A stretch of DNA of 64,000 bases. Source: Tribonema minus. Lineage: Eukaryota > Sar > Xanthophyceae > Tribonematales > Tribonemataceae. The notes below the pieces were generated by a model. It saw nothing but the letters and a program-made list of their open reading frames with translations, had not been told where the DNA came from and ran no database searches. The DNA is taken from assembly GCA_017506865.1 (NCBI GenBank), contig JAFCMP010000104.1, positions 186,001 through 250,000 on the forward strand, read 5' to 3'. Position 1 is the stretch's first letter. Each line of letters starts with the position of its first letter. Positions 3,912 to 56,600 of the stretch are shown here, piece after piece. Position numbers and translations under genes: made by a program.

Positions 3912-4315
3912 TGCATTTGAAGTTATCGATCACTTGAAGTTCACGTTCGTTGTCCGTGCACCTGAGCGCTGCCACGCGTGGTCACGCCACGTGTGTCATG
4001 GCTCAGCGCTGCCGGCGCGTGCTCACCACGCAGCGCACCCTGGCATCTTCCGTGAATGCCAGTAGCTGACCGCAGGCATGCACACCATCTTTAAACGTCA
4101 TGCTGCACGGCTTAAATAGTGAGCGTGCTTTCACCAGTAGTGCTGTGCCAGGTTCCTGAAACACCTGCCTGTATGCATGCGAAACGGGTTTGAGGAAGGA
4201 GGTAGTCAGTTGGTCAACAACCGTCGACACAAGACGCTCTTGCGTTGATGCGGGGAGTGTCAACGATAATCTATCATCTGACACGAGTGCTGTGCACTGC
4301 CACGGTGCTGCCGCA

Positions 4316-4549
4316 GGTGATGGGCAACAGCGGGCTGCAGCACACGTTCCGCTATCGTGTTGAGACAAGGGCTTCGCATAAGAGTATGTTGTCTAACAAG
4401 CTTGTTGTGCACTGCTGCGGTGCTGCCGCAGGTGATGGACAACAGCGTGCTGCAGCAGACGGCGTTCCGCTCTCATGTTGATACGGTGACTTTGCTCCAG
4501 AATCAGTATCCTAACATGTGTGCTGTGCACTACTGCGGCGCTGCGGCAG
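4316..4549 (+). repeat. Acceptor-side echoes of exon 4550-4636
   Basis: Two degraded copies of the exon's 5' end lie at about 4316 and 4434, spaced about 115 bp apart, ahead of the exon at 4550. Each has the same lead-in (gctgccgcag) and then GTGATGGRCAACAGCG. The farther copy is more diverged. Confidence 0.8.
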
Positions 4550-10500: not shown

Positions 10501-13500
10501 GTGCGCACATAGACCGCCTCCACCACATTATCAATATCGTTGGAAGGCACTTGCGGCTAACCACTCCTTGTGACGTAGAGCTCTACGATCTTTTGATTCG
10601 TTTCCATCAATCATGTGGGCTTCTCTTGAAGTTTTCTGACGGTGCGTACGGTGCACTGCGCGCGGCAACTGCAGGCTGTGCCCGATGCAGTGCGACGACA
10701 TAGAATGCTCCAGTTCTCTGCACACGCCGTTTGTGCTGTTTCGCCCCTGCACCGAGAAAAAAAAGTGCTTGTGAGTGACTGAGCAGCCCTTCTGACGACG
10801 CGCGCGGTGTGTGTGTGTGAGCGCTGCTGCAGGCTGTGCCCGATGCAGTGCGACGACATCTATTCAGCTTTGTTGAAGTTTACTGACGGTGTGTGCGATG
10901 GTCTGTGTTGAGCGCTGCTGCAGGCTGTGCCCGATGCAGTGCGACAACATTGGGCGTGGGGCCCCCGGGACCCTCTTCAGCAGCTGTTCGCCGTGCATAC
11001 AGGGGCTTCCGAGCTACCGGCAGCTGCAGCGCGACGAGGACCACGTGGCGATGCTCAGCGCCAACCTCAAGGGCAAACGGGTATGTAGGTATCACGACAG
11101 CATAATTGCAGGCGGCCAAACCACACGGTGCTCGTAACCTTGCTCTGCTTGAACTTCAACTGTAAACGCAGGCGGCCAAGACGCCGGCGCACACTGCTGA
11201 TTCACTGCCGAAGCCTAACCTTCACCAGCTTCGTTTGTACGTTTGCGAAGTCGCATCGCACACGTGCGCAACAGATATGCTTGTGTGACCGTCACGTCTG
11301 TACGCCCAAACTTCAACTATGAATGCAAGCGGCCAAGACGCCAGTGCTCTCAGCGCTTGCGTGCTTGAACTTCAACTATACCTGCAGGCGGCAACACACG
11401 GTGCTCAACCTTGCACTGCTTAAACTTCCACACGGTGCTCAACCTTGCTCTGCTGGAACTTCAACTGTAAACGCAGGCGGCCAAGACGCCGACGCACACG
11501 GTGCGCGCCGTCGGCGCCACGCTGCAGCAGCTGGGGCAGCCCGAGACGACGGGCATACATACCATCCTCAGCGCGGCAACGCTCAACCTGAAGCGCGTCT
11601 GCCCCGTCATATTCGCCATGGACTACAGGGGGATGCAGGTGCGTGCGAAGCGCTGACGCGCAGCGGCGCAGCAGCAAAAGGTGAAGTTGAGGTTGAATGA
11701 GGCAATGAAGCCACTGCAGCACTCTGTCATCTGGCTGGTCTTGCAGTGAGCCCCGCCCTCTGACGCAGACCGCGCGCCCCGAAAATGCGCCTCGTGAGGC
11801 AGCGCTGCTCAGCACGCCGCATTGTTCCCCTCGTGTGATCGCTCGGCGGTTACCGTAAATCACGGGGTATGAGACAGTGCCTCTGTATAAGAAACGGGTA
11901 TCTTATACGGCGTATAAGATACCCGTCTCTTACAGCATTTTGACAGGCGTGTATGTAAGATACTAGGTTTGCTGTATAAGAAACACCCTTTCTTACACGC
12001 GGCATAAGGAACCTTCGCGTGTAAGAAAGGGGGTATGCAACGGTATAAGAAACCCCGTACCTTGTACAGCAAGCAAGGCAACTTGTACATCGTAGCAAAG
12101 CATCACCGACAGGCATGCAGCAAGCAGTACATGAGCCTGGCAGGCCCTCGCTTGCGCTCAGCAGGCTCTGGTGCTGGTAGCGGTCATCTGATTCGCCATC
12201 GCTAGTGGCGCTGCTGCTGCTGCTGCTGCTGCTAAACCGGCTAAACCAGCTGCACTACCACCGGCGGCATTCATTGTTCAGCCGTACTACCTCTCACTGC
12301 CTCCCTCGCAGCTCTCAACTTCAAGACCCCAACACCGTTGGTGACGCATACGCTTGCATGCGCAACGCCGTAAAGATACCTGGTTTTACAGCATGTTGAC
12401 AGTGGTGTATGTAAGATACTAGGTTTGCTGTATAAGATACTCCCTTTCTTGTATGCCGTATAAGAAATCCGTATCTAACAGGGCTAAAAAGTTGGCGCTG
12501 TGAAGGTACGGGTGTCTTATACCCCGTGGTTTACGGTACCGCGTCGCGCGCCCTGAGCAGGCCACGGTTGCACGGCCGCTGCAGTGCTGGGGTCGCAATG
12601 CTGTGCAGAGAAGATGGAAAAGGTGTTGTGGCGATATTGGAGAGACACCCCTGGTGATTTTGTGGCGTTGAGAGACACCCCTGCTTTCTGCACCATCACA
12701 TCGCAATGCGGCGCAGATACATGGCAATTTTGGGGCCCCTTCATGCGTGCCTTAAAGGCTGTGAATATGCGACGGTTACCAGAAGCGCTGACCTGGCTCA
12801 TCACATCGCAATGCTGCGCATAATGAACATGGTGGTTTCGGCCCCCACATGCCTCACGGGCTGTGATTGTGGTGATGTTGGACATAAACCCTGACCTGTT
12901 TCATCACATTGCAATGCTGCGCAGATAATGAACATGGTGGTTTCGGCGCCTGGCGGAGACCTCGGGCCCGCGCGCGCAGCCGGCGCGCGCGTGTGCTACA
13001 TCGTGGAGCGCCTCGCGTCAGCGCTCGGCAGGGACTTCTGGCAGCGCAACAGCATCGCTCAGCTCATGTTTGCGTACGTCGTCGTGTGGATGAGGCTGAT
13101 CAGCGGCGACGAGGCGAGTACCAGTTGTGCATACATGAACACTATCCTACAACACAACACATTACTGAAGTATTATAGTGGAGACGACATGGTGAGATGC
13201 GTATGCACCGTGTCAGCGCTCGGCAGGGACTTCTGGCAGCGCAACAGCATTGCTCAGCTCATGTTTGCGTACGTTGTCGCGTGGATGCGGCTGATCAGTG
13301 GCGACGAGGCGAGTACCTCTCGTGCAAACATGAAAACTGTACATTACATCACTGAGTAATTTGCTTCTCGAGTATGATACAGTGACTGTTTGTGTATGTT
13401 CCCAGCAAGAAAAGCGTGGACAAGCTCAATTGGAGCATACGGTATGTATACGCCGTGGTGCAGAATAGGGTTTCCGCCCCTCAAGCGGTACTTCCAAGTA

Positions 13501-16500
13501 AATCAAGTACTTCAGTGGAGGTATGTACTTTTTATTAATTCTCGCTCAGGGCGCGAAAAAGCCCAGATGATTGTGTACTATGATGTATGTACCGCGTCAG
13601 TGGCTGCGCAGGGGCTTTCTGGCAGCGCAACAGCATCGCGCAGCTCATGTTTGCGTACGTCGTCGCGTGGATGCGGCTGATCAGCGGCGACGAGGCGAGT
13701 TGCATACACAAGCATTACAGCACGTCACTAAGTATTGTTGTGGATATGGTATGATAAGATGTGTGTGCCTCGCGTCAGCGCTCGGCAGGGGCTTCTGGCA
13801 GCGCAACAGCATTGCTCAGCTCATGTTTGCGTACGTGGTCGTGTGGATGCGGCTGATCAGCGGCGACGAGGTGCGCACCTCTCATACATACGTCAATACT
13901 CTACAAGACATGACTGAAGTATTATACATAGCGGATACAACTTGATGAGATGTGTATGCACTGTGTCAGCGCTCGGCAAGGACTTCTGACAGAGCAACAG
14001 CATCACTCAGCTCATGTTTGCGTATGTTTGCGTATGTCGTCGTGTGGATGCGGGTGATTAGCGGCGATGAGGTGCGCACCTTTGGTGCATACATGAGCAC
14101 TATACAAAACAGTCACTGAAGTATTATAATGGAGGCAGTTTGATGAGATGTGCATGCACAGTGTCAGTACTCCGCGGGGGCTTCTCGCAGCGCAACAGCA
14201 TCGCGCAACTCATGTTTGAGTATGTTGTCGTGTGGATGTGGCTGATCAGCGGTGACGAGGTGCGCATACATACATCTACAGTACACCAAAATCATACTGC
14301 TTTGAAGGGTGATGGCCCAGAGCACTTCAGAGTTTCCTGATGGTGTGTGTATGCATAGTGGCAGCAGTGCGGCATGCCTGTGCGCATACATGGCACCAGC
14401 GCTCAGCGCGTCTTGCGTCCTACTGCCACTGCTCGCTACTGCTGCGCGCCTGCAGGCGGAAGTGCGATGGACGAACTTCAACCCCAACCTCACCTTCACA
14501 TCAATCCTCAACTTCACCTTCACATCAATAACTTCAACCCCAACCTCACCTTCACATCAATCCTCAACTTCACCTTTACATCAATAATCAACTTCTGAAG
14601 CGCCCTTGAACTCCAATGTTCCTTGCTGCCGTCTGCTGCCTTGTGTGCCCACAGCAGCGGTGCCTGAACATGGGTGAACCTTTAACTCATGTTGAACACC
14701 AAGTAATCTTGAACTTCAACTCTCATGGTTCAAAATGTTCAACCTCAACTCTCAACTCTCAATTCATGTTGAACGCCAGATGATCTTTGACTTCAACTCC
14801 ATCTTGAACTTGCATTATCTTATGGTACATTTGAGCACATCGTCAACATGGCATGTGTCCCGCGGCTGCGCGTTTGTTTTGCGCATCCACAGGAGGGGTG
14901 CCTGCAAATGGTGCTGCAGATAGGGCGTCTGGTCTGCCAGTCGCCGGCGCTGCTGCACCTGCCGACGCGCCGGCATAACATTGAGTGGTGCGTCATTTGC
15001 TGAAGTTTGCATGTTACTGCCGCCGCCAGCACCAAACGGCAACCGTTTGTGGTCTCAAACAGGGTCTCACCAATCCGAATGACGTGAACACGATGCTTTC
15101 TGAGGCATGACCTGTTTTGTGGTCTCAACAGGGTTTCACCACTCTGAAACATGTGAACACGATGCTTTTTGAGGCAACGCAGCGAGCTGTCTGCCCACTA
15201 GCCTGATGCTGCACATTGCCAGAGGTAGACGTCAAGGTGACTCCTGCAACAGAAGACCGACGCCAGTGGTGTGCTGCTACAGTAAAAGCGAACGTGTTGT
15301 AGTCGGTCCATCGGCAAGTGTAACTGCCGTAACCGTCAAGCGTGCAAATGGCAACGAGCATTGAACTCCCCAATGGCTCCAACAGCTTAGAGAGGTAATC
15401 AATGCGTGCAGCGTTTTGGGGTGTGTGAATGTCAGGGCCGCACCCATACCCTGTACCCTGATTGTGTGAAGTGGGAGTCACGCAAAGCACCAAATTTATT
15501 GACATGATTGATTGAATGCGCTGCTTGCTCGCTCATTGACTCTATGACATCCTCTTTGGCATGGCTGGGACCCAGCGAGACATCTTGAAGCATCTGGAAG
15601 TAAACTCTGGGGGGCCCCTGTGGACCAGCTTGCCACCCCGCCGCTTGCCGAGACGTGCCACGTACCTGATGTCGCTCGTCGCTGGTGCAGTAAGCTACTG
15701 CTGTAGATGCAGAAGCAGTGCTCATTATATGCACCATGATAAATCAGTTTTCCTACGCAAGACGGGGGCCTGCTGTGTGCCCGCAGCATGACGCGAAGGT
15801 ATCCTGTGAACTGCAGCAGTGGTGGTAGTGCCACACGTAGCAGTGGGCATGCTCTTAACAGCCGTGGACTGCAGAAAGTCTTGTCACCTGTTACAAACGA
15901 TGTCACCTGTTAACAAACGATGTCACCTGTTAACAAACAATGATCAGAAGCATGTGCTGAGACCCCCCCCCCCCCCACACACCTTCCCCTGTTCTCAAGC
16001 GGTGATCAGAAGCTCGTGGCTGACCCCCCCCCCCCTTTCGCTTGTATGTCATGCCTCAGGATCGCGACGCTGCTGCTGAACGCCGGCCTGCATGGCGAGT
16101 ATGACCGCCTAGTGCGCGCGTACAATGCGCTGGGCTTGGCCGGCGGTCTCGACAGGCTCCCCGAACACCCCTCGGAGATGCAGAAGGCGCAGATGTGCTG
16201 CTGCAGGTGAGCACTGCCACTATTTGGTGATGCGCAACTACCTTAATTGACTAATGAGAGGCTTGGCCGGCTGCCAAGGCAATATTAAGAGGCTTGGCCG
16301 GCGGCCTTGGCAGGCTCCCCGTACACCCCTCGGAGATGCAGAAGGCGCAGCTGTGCTGCTGCAGGTGAGCACTGCCACTATTTGGTGATGCTCAACTGGA
16401 TTCAGTGATTAATGACTGGCTTTGCCGGCGGCCTTGACAAGCTCCCCAAAAATCCCTCGGAGAAGCAGAAGGCACAGCTTTGCTGCTGCAGCTGAGCACT

Positions 16501-19500
16501 GCTGCTGACCGCTGATGCTCAGGGGCACTGTAACAACAGCTGTTAGAAAGACACACGCAAGCGCTCTAAGTACATGCATCTGATGGGGACACCGATCCTC
16601 TTCACAAAGAGGTTTGATTGCACTTAGTCTGAAGAAGCTTCACGGAAGCTGGGCAAGTCTGTTGCTTCAGCGTCGCATGCATGCTGGCACCTCGCCTTTT
16701 GATAATCTCACTGTTTACGCAAACTAGTTCTTACTGCTTCCCCATCTTTCCCCCGGTCCTCTGCCCCCCCCCCGCCCCACCACCACCCCGTGCCCCCCCC
16801 CCCATCCTTCAACAGCAACATCCGCTGCTCCGCAATCCACCGCGTCGTCGCGGACAGCGTCGCGCGCGGCACCGCGCGCATATTCATGCAGTGACGCTCA
16901 CTGCTTCCCCCTCTTTCTCCTCCCCCCCTCACCCACTTTCCCCTTGCCCCCCCCCCCTCAACAGCAACATCCGCTGCTCCGCAATCCACCGCGTCGTCGC
17001 GGACGGCGTCGCGCGCGGCGCCGTGCGCATCTTCACGAGCTACACGCTGCACGCCATCCCCGGCGGCGCCGCGGCCATCGACCACGCCTTGCAGCCGTGC
17101 GAGATGTACATGCGCCGCGGTCACGCGCCGCCGCTGCCGGCCTATGCGGCCGTCATCCCGCCATCGCCATCGCCGCCGCCGCTGCCAAGTGCTGCTGCCT
17201 CCTGCGGCGGCGGCAGTGGCGGCGGCGGCGGCAGTGGCGGCGGTGGTGACAGTGGCGGCGGCAGTGGCGGCGGCAGTGGCGGCGGCGACGGTGCTGGAAG
17301 CGGTAGCGGCACCTTCAGCCTTGCCAGTGACCGCAGCGGCTATGGGCAGGAGGGCAGCAGCGGCGGCAGCAGCGGCGGCGATAGCGACGGCAGCAGCAGC
17401 AGCGGCGCCTCACCTGGTGTACTGCCCAAATTTCCGGGCGACGGCAGCAGCAGCAGTGGCGCCTCACCTGGCGTGCTGCCCAAATTTCCGGGCTCCGGCG
17501 CCACGGCTGCAGGCGCAGTGGTTGCACGCATGCCTGCGCACGTACGCCACATGCAGCAGCAGCGGCACCAGCAGCGCTCAAACGCTGGCACCGCTCCGGC
17601 GCATTCAGCCGTGGACACCACGGCGCTGAGCGGTACGCTGCACGAATCCAGGTGCATGCCAAGGCCGCAGCAGGCACGCGCAGCAGCGATCCCTGTGCAG
17701 CAGCTGCTGCCACAGCAGCAGCGACGCAGTGAGTACAGCAGCCCTGCACACCCGCATGATGACATCATTGGGTGCCAAGGTCCGCTGCCGCCGCAGCAGC
17801 TGTTGCCGCGGCAGCAGCGTCAAGGTCCGCACGCCAGCAGCTCTCTGCCGCCCAGCAGCGCGCTGCTGCAGGGCGGCGCTCAGTACAGCGGCAGAAGCCG
17901 CGGCAGCAGCAGCAGCAACAGCAGCAGCAGCGGCGGCAGCAGCGCTCAGTATAGTGTGGCATCGGGCCCTGCCGCGTTTGATTCCACCGCCTCAGCAGCG
18001 CTGAACGCTGCCCAGCAGCAGCTGCTTCAGCCGTCGCTTCAGGCAGTGCTGCATCTGCGGCAGCAGCATCGGCAGCAGCATCAGCAGCAGCAACAGCAGC
18101 AGCGGCAGCAGCAGCAGTGGCGGCCGAAGCTGTACGCCCCCGTGCCTCGTATGCCTGCGCCGCTGCGGCAGGACATGGGCAGCACGGCTGCCCTGGCAGG
18201 CGCCACAGCGGCGGCGGCGGATCAGCGCACGGCGCCGCCGCATGGCGGCAGCAGCGCGCCGTGCGAGCTGGACTCCACGCAAGCTCTGCTCGACATACTG
18301 CGTGCGCTGCCGACGCTGCCGCTGACCGCCGCCGCAGGCAGCCCCTTCGGCGGCAGCACCGGCGGCAGTGACGCGCAGAGCGAGCTCGAGCAGCAGCTCA
18401 ACGGATTTGCGGCGGCAGCCGCCGCGCAGGATGAACCTCAACTTCTAACATTGGCGCAGCAGCGGGGAACGGCAACGATGCCCCTGCAGACTTTGTCCGT
18501 CGTGCCACTGCTGCCGGGTGAACGCAGCAGCAGCAGCGGCAGCAGCTGCACACCGTACCTTGTGGGCAGCAGCAAGCCACAGCGGCAGCCCCAACAGTTC
18601 AACTCGGCGGGGCTTGCTGCGCCCTTCGAGTTCAGGGTGCCTGTGCTCGCAAGCGCCTCCGGTGGCTGCATTCCGTATAGCGGCAGCGGCGCGCTCAGCA
18701 GCAGTGTTCTGACAAGCAGCAGCGGCAGCAGCAGCGCCGGCAGAAACAGCAGCAGCAGGACCAGCAGCAGCAGCAGCGGCGGCGGAAGCAGCGCCAGCGG
18801 CGCGCCCGCCGCTGCACATGCCTACCTCCTTCCCTCTGTCGGCAGCTGCGACGGCGGCACCGGCGCCGCTCCATCAATGCTTCAGAGCGCCTCCGGCGGC
18901 GGCGGCGGCGGCAGCTACAGCAGCGCTCAGCGCTTTGGCGACGCGCGCTTCGAGCCGGCCGCGCAGCACCTGCTCGGCGCCCTCGACGCGGACGGCATCA
19001 CGGTGGACGAGGTTCTCCTCGCGCAGCTGGCCGGCGAGCTGAGCGATGAGGAAACGCTGTTTGACTTTGCGGCCGCTGCAATAGGTGACGCTCCCATTGC
19101 CGTCCCGCTCGCCGAAGCGGGCGCGCCGGCGGTGCGCGACAGTGGCGCGATGTCGCCTCAGCCCTGGGCACTGCAGGGGGCGGCAGCGGCGCCGTTCCAC
19201 ATGAGCGGCGTGCAGAAGGGCAGCGACGGTGCGTCACACTTTGAAGTTTGTGGCGCTGTGTCCCGTTTGACCTAGCTCTACCCAAGGAGGGTTGCTTGCC
19301 GCGTGTGACTGCCCGCTATGGCAGCGCTCTACAAGAGTGCCACGTCACGAGTCGACAGCAGCGCGTTGCTCGCTAGTGAGAGTCACCGTGTCGGCGTCTG
19401 CTATGATGTACCATGTTCGGGCTGCATGGCCATGCTTGTTGGCACCTCAGTCGCCCATGCGCGCTTGGCTCAGGTCCTGAGCGCTGATGCATGCATGCAG

Positions 19501-32690: not shown

Positions 32691-32783
32691 CATAAAGCAG
32701 GCGAGCGCGCACAAAGGCGCATGCACTAATATACCACCGCATGCGCTAACATACTGCCTATTGCAGCACCATATTCACACCTG

Positions 32784-37621: not shown

Positions 37622-37699
37622 GTCTACTGTAGACTTGGGATCATCGGGCGTGCTGTGATCAAGAATCAGTCTGACTAAGTTCAAGTGCATCTTGAACTA

Positions 37700-38345
37700 T
37701 GGAACCGAGAAAAACGTTGAGGTGCACCAGCTGTGAGAGTGTGCGGTTCGCTAATGTAGAACGAGACTGGCGGCAGCGCTTGCGGGAGGCTGAATGCACG
37801 TGAGTGACTGAAGGAGGTTGCTGCTGGAGCACCTACGTTGAAAAGCTGGCAAATTGCACAGCATACTCGCTCTTCTGAACGTACCGCCTTATGGGGGCTA
37901 AATGACTTCGAGAAGCTGCGAAGCTTATCTGCGTCCGATTGGTCTTGAAAACGGTACATAGCGGTGCCATCGAAAGACCGATCCTCTGGTGTGCAATCAG
38001 AGGTGTCGCGAACACAGCAACAAAGCCTCTGACATTCAATCTCCAACAGCAATATTGGCGGTTGAAACATCCGTTTTCAGCAGCGGATGGGCTATACCAC
38101 GTTGACTCAACTAAGGCGTGCTGTGCTTAGGGTTTGTCGTAAACATACTTCAAAGACTTCGAAGTACGATAGCATATATGCAAGTGCGTTCATGCAGATC
38201 GGTTCAGATGAGCTGCACGAATGGGCCTGCATGAAAATCTGCGCAAGCCCATTGCTCAGCAGCCCTCGATGCGTGCACATCATATGCAGCAGGCATCCCC
38301 TGTGGCACGGCTGCGCGAGGTCACAACTGCATGTTTGAAGTCTAT
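37700..38345 (-). repeat. Duplicated 5' flank of ankyrin genes, copy B
   Basis: Partner of 29570-30345, in the same orientation; it directly precedes the start of member 3. It contains the palindrome ACTTCGAAGT at 38157-38166. Confidence 0.8.
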
Positions 38346-39390: not shown

Positions 39391-40209
39391 GTAGGGAGCG
39401 TTGGTGGTGCAACAAGGCCCTAGGGCATGGTTTGCACGTCTGTTGTCAGGTTAAGATGGTTTGCACTAAGGTGTTGGCGTGGTAAGTAAGCATGCAGCAC
39501 TACAAGGCACGCTCATCAACTATTAACGGCACTGGTGTGCAACTCATTGAGGACTCCGCCAGCCAAACATCTCTGTGCAAATTTCATTGTTGGCTGCGGC
39601 CAGCCTATGCTTGCGTACTGACTGCACTACACGCGCACGTATAGCGTCTGCAATGCAATGTGGCAGACACCACTTCTGTGACACTGTCACGGTGCTGCCT
39701 CGCTCACCCGCATACAACATGACAACGCCAGAAAGACAAGCTGGACGGCGCATTTCCCTTCACAAACATGAAGCCAAATAAGGGCATGAATCGATGCAGA
39801 CTGCATGGCGTCTTACCTTGCAACTGCACTTCACTGCAGTCTTACAAACAGCACGTGGTCCACCCTTAGCAACGCAGTACACAGTGTGTTCATCTACAAT
39901 GCACAACACCCCATCGCTACTGCCACATGAACAATGCAGTACAGGAGGATCGCAAGCAGCAGCAGCAGCAGCACAACCACCACCACCGGCAGCAACACAT
40001 CAGGAGCAGCAGCAGCACAACGCTGACACAAATTATCGTCCCGGAAAACTGTGAAAGGCTCATGTGCATCCATTGCCTGCGATCACCTACATATGGGCCA
40101 TCCTCGACTGCACGCATAATAGCATGCCCTACATGGCTCATCGAAGCAGGCGAGGCGCATGCGCTAACATACCACACCATGCCTATGGTTAGCACCGTTT
40201 TTACACCTG

Positions 40210-41439: not shown

Positions 41440-41692
41440 GGTCCTTGATCAATGAAGTGAGTGTCATCTGATCATAAAGTGAAGTGCATCTTGAAGTGTC
41501 ATGTGAACCTGGAGGTGTGGAGGCCTTTCCTGGAGTAAGTGCAGCACATACTGCATTTGGCGACTCATTTAAGGAACCGGATTGAAGAACATCGTGAATC
41601 CAATCTACTGAGAGGAGCGGCCGGAGGAGTTGCCGCCAGCCCGCAGCGGCACAGTTCTGCCCACAGACTTCAACTTCACGTTTAATAAAAAC

Positions 41693-44600
41693 ATGAGCCA
41701 GACAGCAGACCAGGTGTTGCTCGGTGCGAGCGAGGATGCAGCGGACGGAGGCGCGTTCGTCAGGGGTGTGTTTGAGGCGCTGCTGCTGGCGACGCGCGTG
41801 AGCAACACGCTTCCAGCAGCTGAGGAGTTCGCCTTCAGGACTACTTATGATGGCTTCAGCGAGGGAGCAGAGAAGGCGTCAGAGCAGGTGCGGTGAACGT
41901 GGGTGCTCATTCAAAAGCGTGTGCGTCAATGCTGGTCATACGTCAGCGCAGCAGCACATGGGCTCTTCTTGTGGCTGTGCTGCAAGTGTTGCTAGTGTGG
42001 GATGATACTCGCATGATTTTGGGTTCAAGACTGGTGACCTGCTCTGCTGCAACATCACGTCATGAAGATCCTGCGTGCACATGATCTTGTAGCATCCGGC
42101 ATCAGTACCTGCTGTTGTTTCTGGCCTCACACTACAGTAGGAAGGTAGAGCAAATGTTGGGCACATACCTGGGCCCTGCAACAGCCGTGCCGATAGGTCA
42201 TCCCATTGGGTCGCTGCCCATATGTAAGTCCTGATAATCATCAAACCTCAAGACTCGTCGCTGTGTAGATGCTCGCTGCTTAGATTTCAATCCCGATAAT
42301 CATCAGTCTGTAAGAAACAGATCGCATCAGGTGGTGCCGTGTCCAGGAACCTGGTGTGTGCGACAGTATGCGGACCGGGCATTTGCTGAGCGATGCTGCT
42401 CACAGGTGCAACCGAATCCAGATGCTGTTTGTGTGCGCTGCGCAAGCCGTCATCCCTCAGCGCATCCTTATGTATTACTAAAGCAGCTTCGCATGGTGAT
42501 GTGCCGGCAATTGAAGTACAGGATGGCACTTTCGAAAGTTGTTTTGATCTCAGATTCTGAGTCTTGTGAGCACCGCTGCTGTACCCGCGACCGCCACTGC
42601 GGAGCCGCCTACACAGTGCCGGCGAGCTGCAAGGATTGCATCGTGTACGTCCGATTGCGTCAATTCACCTCAGTCGCCAACTGAGATAGGCCCCGTAACA
42701 GAGGCACGCCACCTGACGCAACCCTGGAAACAGTAAGTGCGTGTGTGCGCGCCGCCATGCGCACACGCCCGCACTTTACTAAGTCGAAGCAGGACACTCA
42801 ATGCACCACCGCCAGCCGCAATACTCGTGCTCAGGCGCTGGATCCGCTGCAGCTGCCGCTGAGCTTTTCACCGATAATGAGGCGAGGCTTTTTCACATTC
42901 GCCAATATGACTTGACCGGTTTACTCGATGTCACATATGGCTGTTAGAGCACGCTTACGCCCGCTTGACTCCGCCGCCGACCGAGGCAGGCCCCGCAGTA
43001 ACTGAACCAGGACGCTCGCGCAATACTTCAACAATATCAATACTACAACAATAATAAACTCGCCGTTTCCGCGACTGCGTGCAGGTGCTGGAGCTGCTGC
43101 AGCTGCTGCTGGACTTTGCGCGCGACGACGGCGCCAAGCACGTGGACGTGCAGCGCGCAGAGGACCCCACGGAGGCAGCTGTTTTCGACAACGTCGCCGA
43201 CGTCGTCGACGGCCTCCTCGAGCAGGTCCGTCGTAGCTGTACTTTGCACTCCAGCGCGCAGGCCACTGTGTACTGTATGTGTGCTTCGGTGTACTGTACT
43301 GTACTGTTCTGTACTGTACACTGTACTTGTAGCATTATGGTGCTTGGGGCATCGGCGCGTCATGTACAGTGTTCAGGACGGCGTTGGCGGGCCCTTTCAG
43401 CGGGTCAGCTACTGTACCTTGCAGTTAACTGTGAACTGCTTTGTGCTTCAGTGTACTGTACTGTATGTACTGTACCCGCGCCATCACGCGAGTTCTCAGC
43501 GCGCAGGGGGGCGTGTGCAGGACTGCTTCAACTGCTATCACACATTCATCATTTGACCTTCTGTGCTGTGGTTGTGGCAGCATGGCGGGTCAATGCATAC
43601 AATTAGGGTTAGGGTTACTGTTAGTGGCAGCGCTCCACCCTGCAACTGGTACTCTCATTTAGCACGTCATCATCGTGCCTGGAAACCGCCACCATCATCA
43701 ATGAATACTCGACTCCGCTCTGCCGTTGGGAGGACACCTTGGTGGAGGAGTCCAGCAGGCACGCCGCAAAGCTCTGCAACCATGTAATTAGACGGCATTG
43801 CTCAACCACACTGCCGCATCGCTTGCACCTGGACGCGTAAGCGCGCTCGTCCCATCCATGCACCGCCATCATTGATCGCTACCGCAACGCACCGCCGCAC
43901 TTGAAGTCAGGTCGAGGCCTTCATGGAGGAGTCGAGCAGGCGAGGTGCGAACCTCTGAACACATGTAGGATCAGGGTTACCCTACCCTTAACCCTCAGGC
44001 GGCAGTGCTCCACCATACTGCCACATTTGCTCGCACCTGGACATGCAAGCGCATCCATCCCATCCACTATCATAACTTGCTCATGCAATGAATCATCACT
44101 CCGCCATCAGGTTGAGGCCTTTGTTGAGGAGTCGAGCGGGCGTGGCGCCAAGCGGCAGGTGGAGGTGATGAAGGGGCAGCTGCGGCCGCGGGGGCTGGCG
44201 CTTGCGGGGGCGGGGGCGGGGGGCAAATCGGACAAGGCCGGCGCATTTGCGGCGATGGCGGCGGCGTCTGGTGACGTGCCCAAGCCGCAGCTGGAGTTCA
44301 TGGACGAGATAGACAACTCGAGGGACAGGTGCGCAGATTCTTGAAGTTGTTGTTGAAGTTTGTGCGCGTGGTGGTGGTGGGAAGTTGATATTGAAGTTGT
44401 CAATCAACACGTGCAAATACGCTGAACGGTCGGTGTGAGATTGCGGCCGTGATGGCAGCGTCCGGCGACGTGCCCAAGCCGCAGCTGGAGTTCATAGATA
44501 GACAATTCGAGGGAGCGCAGATTGTTGAAGTTGGTGTTGAAGTCACCAAACAAAGGCGTGCGCACAAGCGGAGCGGGTGGGTTTGCGGCGATGGCAGCGG

Positions 44601-47600
44601 CGTCCGGCGACGTGCCCAAGCCGCAGCTGGAGTTCATGGACGAGATAGACAACTCGAGGGACAGGTGCGCATATCCTTGAAGTTGCTGTTGAAGTCACCG
44701 ACTGGCGTGCACACACGTTGAGCAGGCAGGTTTGTGGCAGTGGCAGCGGCGTCCGGCGATGCGCTACTGCCGCAGCTGGAGGCCATGGACGAGATTGACA
44801 ACTCGAGGGAGGAGTGCAGGTTCTTGAAGTCGCCATTGAAGTTGGGGTGTGGTGGTGGGCTTTAGTCTGTGGCCATGGCAACGACATCTGAATATATGCC
44901 CAAGCCACAACTGGAGTTCAAGGACCTCATAGACAACCTGGGGCGGGGGACCCATGCAGAATGCGGTAGGCAAGTGGCTCTAGTGAGTGCACACTTGTCC
45001 AATGGGCGGGTTGGCAGCAATATGGTGGCGTCTGGTGACGTGCAAGCCGCAGCTGGAGTGCATGAACGAGACATGCAACATAGAAAAACTCGAGGGAGGT
45101 GCACACTTTCCTTGAAGTTGGAGTTGAAGTTATCAATTGGTGCGTACAAACATGCTGAAGGGGCGGTTTGCGGCCATACGGCGGCGCCTGGAGACGTGCC
45201 AAAGCTGCAGCTGCAGGTCATAAGCGGGAGTGACATCTCTAGGGAGCGTGCATTGTTTTCCTTGAAGTCACCGTTGAAGTAAGCACTGTGTGAGGCCTTT
45301 TCTGTGGTCACGCTAGTGGTGTCTGACAGCAGACGTGCCCAAGCCGCAGGTGGATTCATGGACGACATTGGCGCCTGGAGAGGGTTCTATTACTTGAAGT
45401 TACAGTTGAAGCTTCTTTAATGTGTGGTTATAGAGCGTGATACGTAGACATGTCGCGTGGGCGCTTCTGCGTTTATGCCAGCGGCGCGCGGTGCTGTTGC
45501 TGAGCTGCAACTACGTCGTCACATACCGCTTACCGTGCATCCATTCTGACATTACTGCCGGCCGTTTCAGCGAGGTTCCACAGCAAACTGCATACTGTGA
45601 CGCCCCTGAATCCGGTGACGCACATAGGCCCCCATGAGTGCACTTTATCAACTGGTCGATGATTTCACTGCGAGTGCAGTGCTACAATGTTGTGCCCAGC
45701 ACGAGCGCGCGCACACACACAACACACAACACATACAAACACACACACAGAAGACGGTGTCGGCAGCAGAATCTTATGATTTGTTCTTCACCCCACGCCG
45801 ATACTGCTGCAGGCCGTTCATGCCGCGGCTGCGTAGCAAACCGCACGCAGTGACATCCCTGGATCTGGTGACGCACCTGCATGAATCTGACGACTTCAAG
45901 TGCTGATTGCATTTGCGGATATGTTGTCAATGAGACCATCTGTAAGCACACAACACATGCACACACCCACACACATGCACACACGAGAGAGATGTAGCCG
46001 CCAAGTCATGAGTTGTCCTTCACCCCGCACCCATACTGCTGCAGGCCGTTCATGCCGCGGCTGCGCAGCAAACCGCACGCGGTGACGCCCCTGGATTTGG
46101 TGCCAACACCGTTGGATGGGGGGGAAGACGGGGGGCGCTACCCAGAGTACTTTCCTCACCCATATGAGGCGGAGTTACAGGAGTTTAAGCCGGAGCCCTG
46201 GCAGTTGGAGGTGCCAAAGGAGGCTGATCTGGTGGTGCCACAGGTAATTGGAAACGAATCGAAAGATCGTAGAGCTCTAGGTGACAAGGTGTGGTTAGCC
46301 GTCAAACTGAATGCCTTCCACCAATGCCCGTGGTCGCCGCTGCTGCGGCAGTTGAATGTCACCGTCATAGCAGCGGCTGGAGAAAGTAATATTGCGGTTT
46401 AGTGCATGTAGCGGTTGGAGCATTGTTGGAGCGCGTTGGCCAACGCACGCACGCATTGCGTTTGAGCCACCTACGATATATGCGGACTGAGAGGGAAGTT
46501 GTGTGCATTGAAACTCAGAAACAAGACGCAATTGGTAGCGCCACAACTGTCATGCAACTGTCATCAGTATCAGCAGCGAGTGGAAAGATGCTCTGCGGTT
46601 CCCAGCATGTACGAGCGCCGGTGAACCGCTGTAAAGCGCTACATGTGCCTGCCTGCATGTTGTGCTTGTTGCTTGGTCCGCCCGCATCTGTCGGGGCAGC
46701 GTAGTGGGTGCCGTACGGGTCACATTTCCAGCGACCCATTGCCAATCAGCTCCATATTGCGAAACCGCTCTTGGCGGCCCCCCTGCTGCTTCCAGGCAAG
46801 CCCGGTGCGCAGCGAGTGAAACTGCGGTCTGGACAGCAAACTTCAGCAATGGCTCTCCTTCTCATGCCGACAGTACCATGATGCATATCAACTTGAAGTT
46901 ATGCCTGCGCGACTCTGCAACGCTGTGTGCGCTGCGCTTTTCGCTTCTGGAGCCTGCGCCGCATTCACAACAGCGCGGTGTTGCTGCTGCCAAAGGAAAG
47001 AAGGCGCTGGTGCCGACGCTTGCAACTCTGACCGTAACCCTGATGCCACCAAGCGCAGGGCAATTGTCATCCCAAACGTGAAGTATGCGCTCGCCTGCCG
47101 ATGCTTACAACTCTGGCAGTAATCCTGATGCCACCAAGTGCAGGGCACTCAGCATCCTCAACTTGAAGTATGCACTCGCCTGCCGATGCAAATCTGACCG
47201 TTACCCTGATAGCACAGCACAGGGCAGTCAACATCTTCAACTTGAAGTATGACATCTATCTCTCTCTCTCTCTTGTTGACAGAGCCTGGACCGCAGCAAG
47301 GAGAATCCGAATCCACCGCCGCACAAGTACATCGACACGGAAGCGGACTTGCGTGCCATGCTACAGGACCTCACGGGCTGCAGGGAGGTTGCGATCGATC
47401 TGGAGCACCACAGTTACAGAACGTTCCAGGGGATACTGTGCCTCATGCAGCTCAGGTGAGGAGTTTGATTTGCGCGCGGAACTCACTTTGTGCGCTGATG
47501 CAGACAACACTAAACAGAAAGCATAATCCATGCATACCTAGTAGTATTACCTACCTCTTGCGCAGTTGTAAAGACATCAGCGGCAGAGAGCACCCATAAA

Positions 47601-50600
47601 CACATAGAAGTACCTATCTTCTTGTTACAATCTGCCCACATGATGTCTCAGGGAGCGGCGTGGCTCGGGATCTGAGCCAAACCTGACCCGGAGGGCGTGG
47701 ATTCGACTCATTCATGTTCATGCACCTGATCATTCACGCGCGCAGCATGCATTCGGCTGACTACATCATTGGCATGATCACGTTCCGCGCCAGCTGCACC
47801 TGCTCGTGTCGCGTTTTACTGACCCGTGCAAGCTCAAGTTCACTTCATGCTTGTGAACGAACTGACCAATTCATCTTCATGAATTCACCCGCCCATTCCC
47901 GTACTCCACACGCGCGCAGCACGCGATCGGCAGACTACATAGTCGACGCCATCGCGCTGCGCCGCCGGCTCCACCTGCTCGCGCCGCTGCTCGTGGAACC
48001 GCGCGTGCTTGATCATCTTCATGAATTCACCCGCCCATTCCCTGAATTCATGCGCGCGCAGCACGCGGTCGGCTGACTACATCATCGACGCCATCGCGCT
48101 GCGGCGCCGGCTCCACCTGCTCGCGCCGCTGCTCGCCGACCCGCACGTCCTCAAAGTCACTTCATGCGTATTGACAACCTGACCAATTCATCTTCGTGAA
48201 TCCACGATCATACACTCCGTGCACGCGCAGCACGCGGTCGGCGGACTACATCATCGACGCCATCGCGCTGCGGCGCCGCCTGCACCTGCTCGCGCCGCTG
48301 CTCGCGGACCCTCGCGTGCTCAAAGTCCTGCACGGCGCCGACTCCGACGTCCTCTGGCTGCAGCGCGACGCAGGCGCATACGTCGTCAACATGTTCGATA
48401 CGGGCCGCGCGGCGCGCACGCTCGACCTGCCGAGCCGGGGCCTCGCGTACGCGCTGAAAGAGTTCTGCGGCTTCGAGGCGGATAAGAAGCATCAGCTGGG
48501 GGACTGGCGCGTGCGGCCGCTGCCGCCGGCGATGCTGAAGTACGCGCAGGCGGACACGCACTACCTGCTGCACGTTTATGATCGGCTGCGCGCGATGCTG
48601 GGGACGCCGGAGGCCATTGCACAGGTGAGCGCTGCTAGTGTAACTGTAACTGTAACAGCTGGCGCGTGGGGTGCGCTGCTGCCGGCGATGCTGAAGTACG
48701 CGCAGGCGGATACGCACTACCTGCTGCACGTGTACGACCGGCTGCGCGCGATGCTGGGGACGCCGGAGGCCGTCGCGCAGGTGAGCGCTGCCAGTGTAAC
48801 TGTAACTGTAACAGCTGGTGCGTGAGGTGCGCTGCCGACGGCGATGTTAAAGTATGCGCAGGCGGACACGCACTACCTGCTGCACGTGTACGACCGGCTG
48901 CGCGCGATGCTGGGGACGCCAGAGGCCATCGCACAGGTGAGCGCTGCCAGTGTAACTGTAACTGCAACAGCTCGTGGGGTGCGCTGCCGCCGGCGATGTT
49001 GAAGTACGCGCAGGCCGACACGCACTACCTGCTGCACGTGTATGATCGGCTGCGCGCGATGCTGGGGACGCCGGAGGCCATCGCACAGGCGATGAGCACT
49101 GCTGCTAGTGTAACTTACTGTATCAGCTGTTGTGCAGGGTACGCTGCTGCGGGCTGCTGGCTGGTGCCGATGCCGGCAGTGTTATAGTTCGTGCAAGCAG
49201 ATACTGCGCTACGTGCTGCACGTTCACTTCACGTTTCGCACGTCGCTGGGGACTATCGGACACGGTCCACATAGGTAACAATGAGCACTGGTTCGATGTC
49301 GAGCTTGCAGGTTGGCAACCGCACCATCGTCGGTGCACGCCCTTGACTGTGGTAGCACGGCTCAATGCCCACAGCAGTGAGTGGTAAGGCTGCATGCTAT
49401 TAGCGCTACTGTGCGCCCTTGTGCGGCAGGTCCTGGAGTCGTCGCGCGAGCTGTGCCTGCAACGATACGAGAAGGAGTGGATTCTACTATGTTGTTATTA
49501 ACAGCACAAACTGAGCGCTGCTTTGCGGCTGTGTGCGGCAGGTCCTGGAGTCGTCGCGCGAGCTGTGCCTGCAGCGCTATGAAAAGGAGGCGTTCGATCC
49601 GGAGGGGTGGCGGCGCGTGCTGCAGCGCATAGGGGGGGAGGGGGCGGGGGCGCTCGACAGCGCTCAGCAGGCGCGCATGGCGGCGCTGTGGGACTGGCGC
49701 GATGCGCTGGCGCGAGAGGTGAGTGCAATAATGAGGCAAGCACATGACAAGACGTAACGCGTGTCTCAACATTGCTTGCTGCAAAGCTGTAGGCCATGGG
49801 GGCGCTCGACAGCGCTCAGCAAGCACGCATGGCGGCGCTGTGGGGCGGGCGTGACGCGCTGGCGAGAGAGGTGGGTGCGATGGTGTTTTGTGCCAAGGCC
49901 TTTGGAAACCGCATGACAAGACGCGGTGATGTTTGCTGATGCTGAGTCACCAGCGCGTAGGCGCCACGCGGACTCTCAACAGCGCTCAGCCACCTGTGGG
50001 AGTGGCAGTGCCCAGCGGTCCAGGTAGCGTACCTACCTCACGTCACGCCTCCACCCCAGCACCCGACTATTCTCGTCACCTAGACTCAATGCCAGGTTTG
50101 ACACTGCTAGCGGTTTGACTCCAGTCTTATCCTGTCCTACGTCCTACGTTGCCCTGCAGGAGAACGAGTTGTTCGATTATGTCATGTCAATATACGTGCG
50201 TACCTCATGTTGGGCCTCGCCAGACTGGTACCCTGGCCTCAATGCATCTTGAAACGCAATCTACCCCCTCCCCCCCCCACCACCACCACCACAGAAAGAT
50301 GCGTCCCCCGGCTACACTATGTCAGACCTGCTTCATGCCGGCTTTGTCATGCCGCGTACCTCATGCTACCCCCATCTCTGTCGGTCACACTCCACCGCTG
50401 ACCCGGCTCAATCCCCCAAATTCAACCCAACCTGCACCGCAACTGATTTCCCCCCTCCCAATCTTGACCCAAACTGCACCGCCGCAGGAGGGCGAGTCCC
50501 CCGGCTACGTCATGTCGGCGTACCTCATGCTGCCCCTCAAACTTATCCGCTACCTCAACCCCACCGCTTACCCGGCCTCACAGCTCACCTCTGACCCCCA

Positions 50601-53600
50601 GTCCGACCCCCCAATTCCAATCCAATCCGCACCGCGGCAGGAGGACGAGTCCCCCGGCTACGTCATGTTGCGTACCTTGTGCTGCGCTTTAACGCTCATC
50701 GCTGCTTCAAACCGCACCACGATGTACCAGGCATTGACGCCAGCTACAACCCTCGGTCTGCTGTCAGCCACATCTGACCCTCAGCTACCCCACTCTCGCC
50801 CCAACGCACCCATCCCAGGAGGACGAGTCCCCCGGCTACGTCATGTCGGCGTACCTCATGCTGCGCCTCGCGGTTATCGAGTATTCGATCACTTTGTCTG
50901 GCTCCCGATAACTTGTCTGGTACCCGAACTTTACCTGGTGCAGGTGCCGCGGCCCTCGCCAGCCGGCGCCGACCCGCCGGCCTCCCCGTAGATATGGTAA
51001 TCGCAAAGCCCGTTTTATCGTGTGCTCCGCCCATGCGATTTAGGACAGAATATAAAACTTCACCTGGCCTCAACGCTCGCCTTGGACCCCGCAACCTAGT
51101 CCCACACCTCATTGCCATCTGCATCCATCTCAGGAGGACGAGTCCCCCGGCTACGTCATGTCGGCGTACCTCATGCTGCGCCTCGCGCGCGCGGCGCCCG
51201 CGTCGCACGACGCCCTCGTCCGCTGCGCGGCGCCGCTGCCGCCGCTCGTGCAGCAGCGCTCCGACGAAGTCATCGCGCTGCTCGCTGCCGCGGCCGCCCC
51301 CGCCCCCTCCCCCGATTCGGTGACCCCGGGGCGCGTGGGCGCGCAGCGGCGGCGCGGCGGCGGGTCCTACGGGCGGCAGTTCAGCGTGACCCCAGGGGCG
51401 TCGGTCGCGACGGAGGGGGCGGCGCCGATGGACGTCGTCGGCGGCGGCGATGGCGACGGGGAGAAGGTGTCATACTGTATGTGGTCGATGTGTCGGGGCG
51501 GGTTCGCGCTGTTGGTGGCGTGGATGGTATAACTTCAAGTTGAAGTTGAGGTGATGAAAGCGGCGGCGAGAAAGTACAGGCTGCGACCGCTGTGTCGGCG
51601 CGGGTTTGCACTGTTGGCGACGTAGGACGGTAGAACGTCCTGTTGACTTTGAGATGGCGATGGCGACAGCGAGAAGGTAGAGGGCGCGGTGTCGGCGCAG
51701 GTGCCCTTTTGGTGGCGTAGGCGTAGGACGGTGGAACTTCAAATTGAAGGTGTAGTTGGCGATGGCGGCAGCAAGAAAATACAGGGCGCGGTCGCTGTAT
51801 TGGCACAGGCGTGGGCTCGCACTCTTGGTGGGGTAGGGCGGTATCACTTCAAGTTGAAGTTGTAGTGCTTGCCGTGTGCGAAAGTGAGAATCCGCACGCG
51901 CACGCAATCAGAGTGTGGCCGCATTCCAAGTCTCGCCTCGCGTGCACCTTGCGCGCGCAACGTCGCTTTAGGGTTAGGGTTAGGGTTGTGGTCTGATCGT
52001 AGCTGGGCCGGTTGATGTGGTACGGTCACACCCTGCTGCGCCTGACACTGTCACGTGCGGCGCAGCGCAAGTTGCCTGCGACCCCATCGGCAGCGGGGCG
52101 TCGGTGTTTGCAGCGACAGGTCGCCGCCTGGCCCTCACAAGACCCTAACCCTAACCTGATGCTGCCCCTAACTTTAGCAGCGGAGCTTTGTTGTTCGCAG
52201 CAAAAGGTCAACGCCTTGCCCTCAGCTTGTGTGGTACCCTAGCCTCACCTCAACTTAAGTTCTGAAGAGGAGCATGGCAGCGCTCAGCCAGCTTGGCCTG
52301 CAGCAGCTTGCATGGCCGCAGCTCATGCATAAGGTTAGGGTTAGGGTTAGGGTTGCGGTCAGGTAAAAGTGCAAGGAGATGAAGCGGAGTGAGTCCCCTG
52401 TTTGCGCATTCGAGTCAGCGCTCAGCCGGCCTGGCCTGCAGCAGCCTGCTGGCCGCAGCTCACGCATTCAAAGCGCAGATGAAGCGGAGCGAGTTAGTGC
52501 AAGCGGTATACTGGTGCCGCTGGTCTAGTAATTACGTCAATGTTGCTCTGGCTCATGTCTGCTGCGAGGCTGCGAGACGGAATCAACATTTAAATATGCA
52601 TGCTCACTTTGTGCCTTGCTGTATAGACTACTAGAAGTATCTACCAGAAAATACGTGTGCTTGATGCAGAATAATATATCGTGTACTTCAAGATGCTCCA
52701 AAGTGCTATTGACGCTTATATATGCTATCTGCAATGCGCACCTTGCTACCGCTCACCGTCCGTGCTGCGCGCTGCTGCTGATCGCTGTTGCCGCAGGAGG
52801 GCGAGCACGCGCCGCTGGGGACGTGCCGGCTCGCGTGCGTGGCAACCGCAAACTTGAAGTTTGACACGCGCGCGCGCATGGCGCACACCATGGTCCTCTC
52901 CATTCACTCCGGTACGTTGCTGAGCTGCTGCACCGCTGCTAGAGCTTGGTGTAATTGACGTAACTGCCAAGTCGTCATGCTAGGCGAGCTGAGGCGAGGT
53001 GTCCTGTGACCCCTGCTTTGCCAGGCATGACCTTGACATAGTGTGACTGACGCAACTGCCACTTTCTAGTTTGTACCATGACTTGAGGTTTGAAATTCAT
53101 AGTAGAAGTATCGTTGTTCCGCCAAATTGTCACTCTTGCTGTCTTGCCTTGCGTCAACAAAGATACACCATCTGCAAGGGTGGGTCGATACACACTGCAC
53201 ACTATGTAGGTCCCAAATGATCGAAACCTCCCTGGTCGTGAGCTTACACGGTGCCGCCGCCCCCCCCCACCCCCCTTGATTGTTTGCTACCACGCACTGC
53301 CACGGATGCCAGTGCAAGCGCAGCTTCAACATAATCTTTGATACTTCGAAGTACAACGTTAGGGTACAGGTTAGATCTAGCGCATTGCTCCGGGTCGAGA
53401 TGAGAGTAAGGGTTATGATTGTAGGTAGAGTAGGCGCACCATCCCCCCCCCTCCCCCCCTTCCCCCAAACATGTCCATCTGCATAACATCCCAAGAGGTG
53501 CGCCCCTCGTGTACCGTGAGAGCGCAACGTGCAAGTAGCATTGTTGTGATTCGCGTCTGCTGTGTGCTGCATTTCCAAGGTGTCCTTGCGCTGCCGCGGC

Positions 53601-56600
53601 TGCAATCTCATGCCCGCCCGCCCAGATCGCAAGAAGCGCTGCGCTGCTGCCGCTTCTCGCCGGCGCGATGCACCTCCTGCCGTCCGCTGCTGCGGGCGCG
53701 GGAGCGCAACGCCATCAGCACATCCGCCCCACACGCCCGCCCTGCTCTATTCCTCTTCTGAGCGCTGCTGCAGAGCTAGCGCCAGCTTGTGCCGCGCCAG
53801 CATGCGCAGCGTGCTGCTGGTCCTCCGCCGCGCGATGCATCTTAGGGTTAGGGTTAGGGTCAGGGTTAGAGTTACGGTGGCGGCGCGCGCAAGCACGCAC
53901 CTGACACTTTATGTACTTCCTCACGTCTGCTCTATACTTTGTATTTACATATCACCATTAATGTTATAACACACTTCAAGTATAGCTTAGGATTCTCCCA
54001 TCAGGTCAACAATCCCGACATACTATGAGATAAGTTTTGATCGGCTTTTGCCTGGATCAGCTTTCAATGTATATTCAATCACTTTATTAATCACTTCATC
54101 AGGCTTTTGTACACTTGGATGCTTTTTCCCGTCCTGCTGCGCTGCTGCAGCCGCCAGCGCCAGCGCGCGCGCGCAGAGCATCCGCGACAAGATCGCGCAC
54201 GCGCCCGTGCCGTGCGCTGCTGTGGCGGCGGCGGGCGCAATGACACACCTAATATATACTTCACCATAATGCACTTCTTTCTCGCGCCCGCTTCTATGTC
54301 TCTTCTGAGCGCTGCTGCAGCCGCCAGCGCCAGCGCGCGCGCGCAGAGCATCCGCGACGAAATTGCGCGCGCGCCCGTGCTGTCGCTGCGCCACGCCGCC
54401 GCGTTTCTGCTGGAGGGCGAGAAGCCCGCCGCTGCCGCCGCCACCGGTGGTGCTTCGGGCGCCGCGCCTGCTGCCAAGGTGCGCCGATATTCAATTGAGG
54501 GGATGCTGGAAACCATTGAATTTTCTTGTACATAGATATCGCAATGGAGGTGCACAGTGTTGGATCTGCTTGCCCGGCCGCGGCAGCAGCCGAGTGTGCT
54601 GCCAGATAGACATCGCAATGGACGTGCACAGTGTTCTGAGTGTGCTGCTAGATAGATGTCGCAATGGAGGAACGTGGTGTGTTTGTGCTGCTTAAGCTGG
54701 CCGCGACAGCAACTGAGTGCGCTGCTAGCGTGGGGTCAGGCGCAGACAGATGCGCGTTGCTTGCATGGGGGTACCAGCGCCGGTACGCTTTTTGCATTGA
54801 GCGCTGGCAGCTCGCTTCTGACTTGATAGTTTGAAGTATTGCTTTTTGAATTACAAAGTGCGGCACTTTACTGCATTGCATCGCCTGTTGTCAGCACGCT
54901 TGATGGCCTGCAGAATGTGCCGCTGTGTCTGCAAGCCGTCCATTCTGAGCACTAACGCCCATTGCGCCCCGCCCCTCCTTTCCCCGCATATTTATGCGGC
55001 TGTGCAGGCTGACGTGAAGGCGGAGGCGGCAGAGGCTCCGCGCAGCATGGCTGAGGTTTACGAGGTAATAATAATCCCACAGTACAATCAATCTCTTTTC
55101 TCAGCACTAATTGTCTCGCGACCAGTGTCGATCCATCAACCTTCAAAGGATACAATTCGTTGTATACGATCTGTCTATACATCTGTCTATGCATATTTCA
55201 TGCATCATGACGCCCAGAGACGCTGGCGGCACAGGCAGGCTTGGCAGCGCGCTGGCGTTTGCGGCTCGCTGCCAGCGCGCGGCGGTTTCATTCACTCCGC
55301 CACTTTGCCACTAATTGTCACCCCGCTCCATAGCTTGGAGCAGTACACCATTACAACTAGTGCTTCTGGCATGTTCGCACACCACCTTCTACACTACGCG
55401 CATTCAAGAGCGCTGTCAATAGCTGCTGCACCTCCTGTGTTTGGGCTACCAGCTGGAGCTGGCCTACCGAACACGTGAGACCTTTCCATACTGAACACCC
55501 ATGCCCTCGAACGCTACAAAGCTCGCACACAGAAGTCTTTTGACCTGTGGATATGATGGCACTGTTTGACTCGTGGCCAATGACTGCAACAGCGGCGACC
55601 ACGGTTATTGGTGGAAGGCACTTGCGGCTAACCATCCTTTGTCACCTAGAGCTCTACGATCTTTTGATTCGTTTCCATGTTATTAGGCCGCCAGGGCAGT
55701 GATGCAGGTGTAGTTGCACCTGGCAGGCCAGTGACTCCAGTGATAGGTGCGCGCCTGCAAGTAAATAAACATGGTTTGCTCGCCCAGGTATTGCGCTCAG
55801 GTGTTGAGAAAGCTGCTTCACACGCACCCCCCTCCCTCACCCAGGCGCTTTGTCAGCAAAAAGTCATTGTTATAACCCGCCCCACGCACCCTCCCTCCGC
55901 TGCATCTGCTGCGCCAGCTCTCCAACCGCAATCGGCGGCGATACGCGGACAGGCAGCACGCGGATGCCGTTGCCAGCAGCGGCGGCAGCGGCGGCAGCAG
56001 CAGCAGCGACGCTGGCAGCGGCGACAGCGAGAGCGAGGAAGGAGCCGTGAGCGGTGACGGCGGACAAAGGCGGCATAAGCGTGCGGGCGCCCCTGCTCCG
56101 TAAGTCCACCGGTCGTCATTGCCACAGTGTGCGCTCAGGTGTTGTCGATTGGTCGTCGTTGTGCGCCCAGGCGTTGTCAATTGGTCGTCGTTTTGGTTGT
56201 CGTGCGCCCAGGTGCTGCCAGGCCAGTCGTCATGTGTGTGCCGCCAGGTGTCGTCAACTGGTCGCCGTTGTGCGGCCTACCCCTAACCCTAACCCTAACC
56301 CTAAGGTGCTGTCAATGCAACGCATCTCGGTATCTGGACGACAGTCATCGATAACACCTGGGCGCACATCTTGCACTGCATGGCATGCGGGCGATACTTC
56401 AACAAGTGTTAGGTTGCACATGGGTTGCGCGTGCTTGGTCCATTGGCGGGCCTTATTAGTCAGTCATGGGAGCAGGCGGTAGGCACCGCTCCATGTTTTG
56501 GTTGTCATACATTGTAATAGTGGCAATTATTGCGGTGGCGGTGGCACCTTTGATCTGCTAAAAAAGTGGCACGCTCTTGCTCAAGAAATCCGGAGTTAGG

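Follow-up and report, generated by a model that had tools for sequence, protein, structure and literature searches.

Partial copies of exon edges form arrays beside splice sites in Tribonema minus, probably as ordinary local tandem duplications

How does an intron come to hold, next to an exon, a row of decaying partial copies of that exon's own edge? The question is raised by the window, i.e., the whole 64,000-base stretch analyzed here (bases 186001 to 250000 of contig C104, which has 268,450 bases, in the 158-Mb, 554-contig genome of Tribonema minus). A sequence-only reading had noticed such arrays around exons of RRP6 and of a large gene at 4.5 to 19.9 kb and had ascribed them to a process tied to splice junctions. 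Self-BLAST, TRF, and translations show that the arrays exist where they had been noticed (Table 1). We consider, with a probability of about 0.6, that these copies (hereafter, echoes) are ordinary tandem duplications from break repair that are over-represented at exon edges.

The best protein match of the RRP6 gene is an annotated T. minus protein, and its exonuclease domain has matches in Pfam (PF01612) and among solved structures of exosome component 10/RRP6. The annotated protein begins within exon 4 and holds exons 4 to 8 once each; therefore, the annotators' gene model removes the intronic copies by splicing. An Ectocarpus homologue spans 100% of the RRP6 query that includes the putative exon 3. 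At the other end (window 51134-51530), the annotated protein continues through the donor-like site that follows exon 8 before meeting a stop codon; the gene model in the database may thus end too early at this point.

A measurable intronic echo was found at 8 of the 11 RRP6 splice edges tested, and arrays of partial copies flank exons 3, 4, 6, 7, and 8. The downstream copies of exon 3 carry the 3′ part of the exon (92 bp), the donor, and the start of the intron. Six of them were counted by self-BLAST and one by eye, in agreement with the seven reported earlier, although only one of the two reported upstream copies could be measured. For exon 6, the three copies noted on either side were recovered, with a further weak one downstream. 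Where five upstream copies of exon 8 had been counted, four were found, and the supposed three downstream copies turned out to be an array of intron sequence only that starts after the donor. Furthermore, the array in the intron preceding exon 5 stops short of this annotated exon and is a counter-example, not an edge array; the edges of exon 5 itself were examined, and no echo was measured there. In the large gene, the exon near 12925 has the expected five downstream copies (of 13014-13143) and one or two, where two had been seen, upstream. A second array-bearing exon lies near 16055. When the long last exon of this gene was searched at the protein level, no match was obtained at E 1e-20.

Table 1. 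Exons and echo arrays in the window (window coordinates)
Feature	Position	Strand	Details
Large gene, exon near 12925 and copies	12694..14288	+	upstream offset 105 bp; five downstream, period 195 bp
Large gene, three copies reading as exon 3′ edge and donor	16133..16521	+	offsets 158 and 127 bp; edge by eye
Upstream echo, RRP6 exon 3 acceptor	43790..44151	+	43790-43951 versus 43997-44151; intron part 0.65, exon part 0.81
RRP6 exon 3	44111..44328	+	absent from annotated protein; putative, from frame, splice sites, and Ectocarpus homologue
Downstream echoes (about 7), RRP6 exon 3 donor edge	44381..45411	+	period about 146 bp; TRF, self-BLAST
Upstream echoes, RRP6 exon 4 acceptor	45555..46044	+	45716-45870: intron 0.76, exon 0.91
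RRP6 exon 4	46045..46243	+	start of annotated protein falls inside
85-bp array, intron preceding RRP6 exon 5	46998..47251	+	TRF, self-BLAST
RRP6 exon 5	47328..47454	+	as annotated
Three upstream echoes, RRP6 exon 6 acceptor	47735..48230	+	period about 142 bp
RRP6 exon 6	48231..48624	+	3′-5′ exonuclease domain
Three strong and one weak downstream echoes, RRP6 exon 6 donor	48659..49253	+	period about 155 bp
Upstream echo, RRP6 exon 7 acceptor	49402..49477	+	88%
RRP6 exon 7	49542..49718	+	in annotated protein
Downstream echo, RRP6 exon 7 donor	49798..49881	+	89%
Four upstream echoes, RRP6 exon 8 acceptor	50261..50878	+	self-BLAST; one identical at 54/54 exon bases
RRP6 exon 8	51134..51466	+	putative 3′ end at a donor-like site; annotated protein continues past
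Array of 102-bp units 3′ of RRP6 exon 8	51473..51867	+	begins past donor; intron sequence only

Elsewhere in the window, no such pairs were listed by self-BLAST between about 20 and 43 kb, setting aside simple repeats, the coding repeats of the ankyrin genes, and a duplication of 40 bp at 28195. The single-exon genes are free of edge arrays, as had been noted: no such pair occurs at 21.8 to 23.4 kb, and the ankyrin genes show internal 81-bp coding repeats. The latter are several related minus-strand reading frames at 25504-41448 with an F-box-like start (by eye) and ankyrin-type repeats of 27 residues (LQWARANGCPWD); the frame at 40210-41448 matches Pfam ankyrin models, and its 81-bp repeats are detected by TRF. 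Minus-strand frames at 3015-3929 and 6505-7598 resemble, by eye, portions of a retroelement; a Pfam search with the former gave no match, and a peptide resembling that of 6505-7497 recurs in one of the random regions used below (L011, near 3980-4275). TRF also detects TTAGGG and CCTAAC in short interstitial stretches at 53842-53878 and 56276-56304, which we take to be telomere-like.

Beyond the window, we examined 16 kinesin loci, taken from 132 matches for having several close exon matches and chosen before their repeats were inspected, and 20 random 10-kb regions. Kinesin splice sites were set by domain matches and a site matrix; of 59 acceptors, the site score retained 54, and of 53 donors 49; visual inspection then led us to discard four acceptors and one donor as wrong. 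All counts exclude low-complexity pairs. Local direct repeats cover 22% of the kinesin loci and 8.7% of the random regions; in random DNA lying over 2 kb from any coding segment, the figure is 3%. Arrays had been noticed in two unrelated genes; they are present in both but are not confined to them, as the kinesin loci have them too. The statement that most exons are bordered holds for RRP6 but is not general, since a local direct repeat straddles 17 of 50 kinesin acceptors and 7 of 48 donors, i.e., 24 of 98 edges. At every straddled edge, the partner copy lies on the intron side, upstream for 17/17 acceptors and downstream for 7/7 donors.

This two-sided rule does not require a process dedicated to splice junctions. 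In our preferred reading, a local tandem duplication with a unit of about 50 to 350 bp would arise by break repair or slippage, break repair being the putative source. When the unit spans an acceptor or a donor, the transcript would go on splicing the original exon. The side rule would then follow because the partial copy produced by a duplication across the edge comes to lie within the intron (upstream for acceptors, downstream for donors) as long as the old exon still must splice. There, the copy would decay without constraint, and further rounds of duplication would build the arrays. We infer that correct splicing is kept since the shortest acceptor-donor pair defines the exon; the choice of the right site among copies is most simply explained by such exon definition.

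The position of the arrays, in contrast to their sidedness, exceeds what controls predict. We used 20 complete kinesin introns (20.7 kb in total), each flanked by exons that follow directly on one another in the domain; recognizable arrays span 24% of them, and 7 of the 20 have none. Fourteen of the 17 arrays in these introns reach into an exon by 15 bp or more (six at donors, eight at acceptors), versus 3.2 to 5.3 expected to touch an exon on random re-placement, and 14 of 16 still do so when neighboring arrays are merged. The random-region introns, predicted by coding and splice scores, gave 8 of 12 touching arrays at lengths up to 1500 bp (3.2 to 4.8 on re-placement) and 11 of 23 when longer introns were included (3.8 to 6.2). 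Three of those eight (L010, and L012 twice) are doubtful, lying in low-complexity coding-like sequence, and omitting them leaves 5/9. Among ten random-region exons checked against Pfam, three were at or over the cut-off (L008, UPF0029; L016, RrnaAD twice), and six gave weak or no matches; a further L016 exon gave a weaker RrnaAD match. Pooling kinesin introns with random-region introns of up to 1500 bp gave 22 of 29 touching arrays versus 6.4 to 10.1 expected, a count attained in 0 of 4000 re-placements. Array coverage was 0.25 to 0.44 within 300 bp of an edge and 0.00 to 0.02 beyond 500 bp, where the deep sample comprises only about 4.6 kb. A circular shift over whole kinesin loci, the kind of shifted control proposed with the initial observation, gave an acceptor excess (17 versus 9.35 expected, sd 2.25) but no donor excess (7 versus 7.9, sd 2.1) in these loci, where many exons are unannotated; this result speaks against an edge effect.

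Could the arrays or their placement be an artefact of detection or assembly? Exon-bearing pairs do stay detectable longer (0.91 versus 0.71 in one setting). However, when uniform duplication with a constrained exon, a neutral echo, and the same BLAST detection was simulated, constraint and detection together raised the touching fraction from 0.26 to merely 0.28 to 0.31. Therefore, the detection bias is too small to explain the placement. Moreover, the copies mostly differ by 5 to 30% and show a codon-position pattern of mismatches, unlike assembly errors, and we regard an artefact as improbable. Because the arrays touch edges beyond both re-placement and simulation, a bias tied to exon edges exists, and it operates in formation, survival, or re-amplification. 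Thus, the part of the original proposal that placed the phenomenon at exon-intron boundaries stands, and the need for a splice-junction process does not.

The divergence of the echoes indicates how they behave after they arise. Of the 63 echoes, 22 had 60 or more bases of distal intron in the alignment and were used to test decay; one of these rows (L023 5814/5748) is an alignment artefact that contributes zero to both totals. With the exon static and the echo drifting, half the intron divergence predicts 148 exon-part mismatches, and 162 were observed. Over all 63 echoes, divergence was 0.096, 0.075, and 0.181 at the three codon positions and 0.201 at fourfold sites, near the intron-part level. 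Because of these mismatch totals and the codon-position pattern, the exon is, as judged from sequence, constrained at coding sites and the echo free. Coding constraint on the echoes themselves was considered and rejected, as 162 versus 148 mismatches in the 22 of 63 echoes is what a neutral echo gives.

The splice dinucleotides of the echoes raise the question of whether selection retains them as decoy or accessory sites that aid exon definition. The AG is intact in 38 of 42 acceptor echoes and the GT in 32 of 38 donor echoes, together 70 of 80 in alignments that were required to span the site; intact decoy dinucleotides are thus common. Without three gapped rows the count is 70/77, against an assumed neutral level of about 0.79 to 0.81 (P 0.005 to 0.014). 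As a sign of constraint, this retention is weak evidence at best, because alignments that had to cross the splice site favor intact dinucleotides. The exon parts of the echoes, moreover, decay near the neutral rate, and retention of decoys by selection seems to us improbable.

Some echo cores match their exon perfectly (RRP6 exon 8, 0/54 mismatches; L034, 0/40) and are too alike for plain decay, hinting at gene conversion, which would favor an account based on survival. Gapped echoes of high identity were at first set apart as a separate templated-copy class, which we mostly dropped: several are far array members with decayed intron parts (L036, offsets 156 and 313; L022, offsets 172 and 145), and the few that remain suggest conversion. 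The farthest copies had been described as usually the most diverged; in 12 arrays with at least three measured echoes, the farthest copy is the least similar in one and the nearest the most similar in six, although the weak far copies of RRP6 exons 6 and 8 (about 70%), which are outside these 12 arrays, do fit the description.

A different origin, in which copies of pre-mRNA or of splicing intermediates are reinserted beside the gene, would account for short-core echoes that end on the intron side near the splice site (about +3 to +17 for donors, -9 to -30 for acceptors). Such a source is very improbable in view of three features. First, the 16 kinesin loci hold 170 direct local pairs and no true inverted copies, the five inverted matches being all self-palindromic at 57 to 66% identity. 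Second, 22 of the 63 echoes have long intron parts. Third, near-tandem pairs of 60 bp or more account for 55 of the 170, the rest being more distant array members or gapped cores. The near-tandem units measure 50 to 348 bp (median 125). In 44 of 47 kinesin echoes, the exon part does not exceed 66 bp, and the 3/47 above that length compare with 51% for uniform units. Neutral geometry fails to predict such short exon parts; perhaps breakpoints fall preferentially in one zone, or longer exon copies are selected against.

The youngest duplications might be expected to separate formation from survival. The young set, with identity of at least 92%, comprises 18 rows corresponding to 17 arrays, located by eye; a 17th kinesin locus (L038) entered only this comparison. 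The 11 young arrays outside the window include one at a clear exon edge (L004), one entering an exon by about 9 bp (L020), one consisting of acceptor-edge echoes (L025), three confined to introns (L028 4478, L030 962, and L033), one in coding sequence (L014), and four that could not be placed (L002, L010, L028 2209, and L030 3378). The six in the window comprise two at edges, one in coding sequence, one in a retroelement-like frame, and two unplaced. These events are few and mixed, and on them the bias may lie in formation or in survival. The array in the kinesin locus L025 (6884-7436) contains several copies, 93 to 95% identical, similar to the beginning of the exon at 8012 with its LNLVDLAGSER motif; it is a young-looking, edge-derived array. 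Tandem duplications also lie within apparent coding exons at L014 8331-8440 (42 bp) and window 17384-17493 (54 bp); both lengths are multiples of three.

The edge excess may come from duplications founded at exon edges, to which we give somewhat less than an even chance, or, with much the same chance, from arrays with one intact exon copy surviving longer and being amplified again. Stated in full, the latter alternative holds that duplications form evenly along genes and differ in survival: edge arrays keep a constrained copy, so that their homology persists, and are refreshed and multiplied by conversion and unequal exchange, and intron-only arrays fade or get deleted. It is plausible but rather doubtful. 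It draws on exon parts that decay about half as fast as intron parts, on the cores that look refreshed, on the 12 edge arrays with at least three measured echoes, and on the single clear, fresh exon-edge case among 11 young duplications outside the window. On the other hand, simulated constraint and detection gave only the small lift described above, the intron parts of measured arrays, at 0.08 to 0.27 divergence, point to a young age at which intron-only pairs should still be visible, and a putative strong re-amplification would be required. A stronger version of the formation account, which we hold to be unlikely, is that exon-intron edges of T. minus are hot spots that found tandem duplications, that introns grow outward by shedding edge copies, and that splicing passes over the almost perfect decoys by taking the closest acceptor-donor pair.

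Small tandem duplications of this type are well known. In a study of induced breaks, they are reported to arise by repair of staggered breaks, either through CST/Pol alpha fill-in and NHEJ or through Pol theta joining, at breaks with long overhangs and with junction microhomology tracked; in humans, they are described there as the commonest insertions under 100 bp (PMC8355091). The duplications there and in T. minus are both direct, with head-to-tail adjacency near-tandem in 55 of our 170 pairs, and T. minus differs in its units of up to about 350 bp, its multi-copy arrays, its exon-edge position, and a break origin that is putative here (PMC8355091). Junction overlaps in six two-copy young cases, no clear exon-edge case among them, were 0, 0, 1, 2, 2, and 8 bp. 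The direct orientation fits break repair as favored above, and so do these short overlaps.

Whole-exon tandem duplication with alternative splicing repeats the exon sequence within a gene. In contrast, T. minus copies only the exon edge with one splice site, and the copy decays; no complete exon with both splice sites was copied among the measured echoes, which are defined at one edge. In the model of intron gain by tandem genomic duplication, the intron that a duplication creates is said to begin with sequence matching the downstream exon, whereas in T. minus pre-existing introns carry their own exon's edge and adjoining intron. For RRP6 intron 6, the one intron compared by eye, the start does not resemble the start of the downstream exon. 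What that model has in common with T. minus is tandem duplication interacting with splice sites (PMC4974935). No description of exon-edge arrays was found in the titles and abstract beginnings of openly licensed PMC papers. On this search, the new part is the concentration of such duplications at splice edges in one genome.

The arrays form a datable record of intron lengthening in T. minus, and they raise the question of whether, for duplications, exon edges act as fragile sites or as protective ones. Furthermore, they constitute a natural experiment in splice-site choice, in which most of the measured copies keep an AG or GT by exon-like sequence and none appears in the annotated RRP6 protein.
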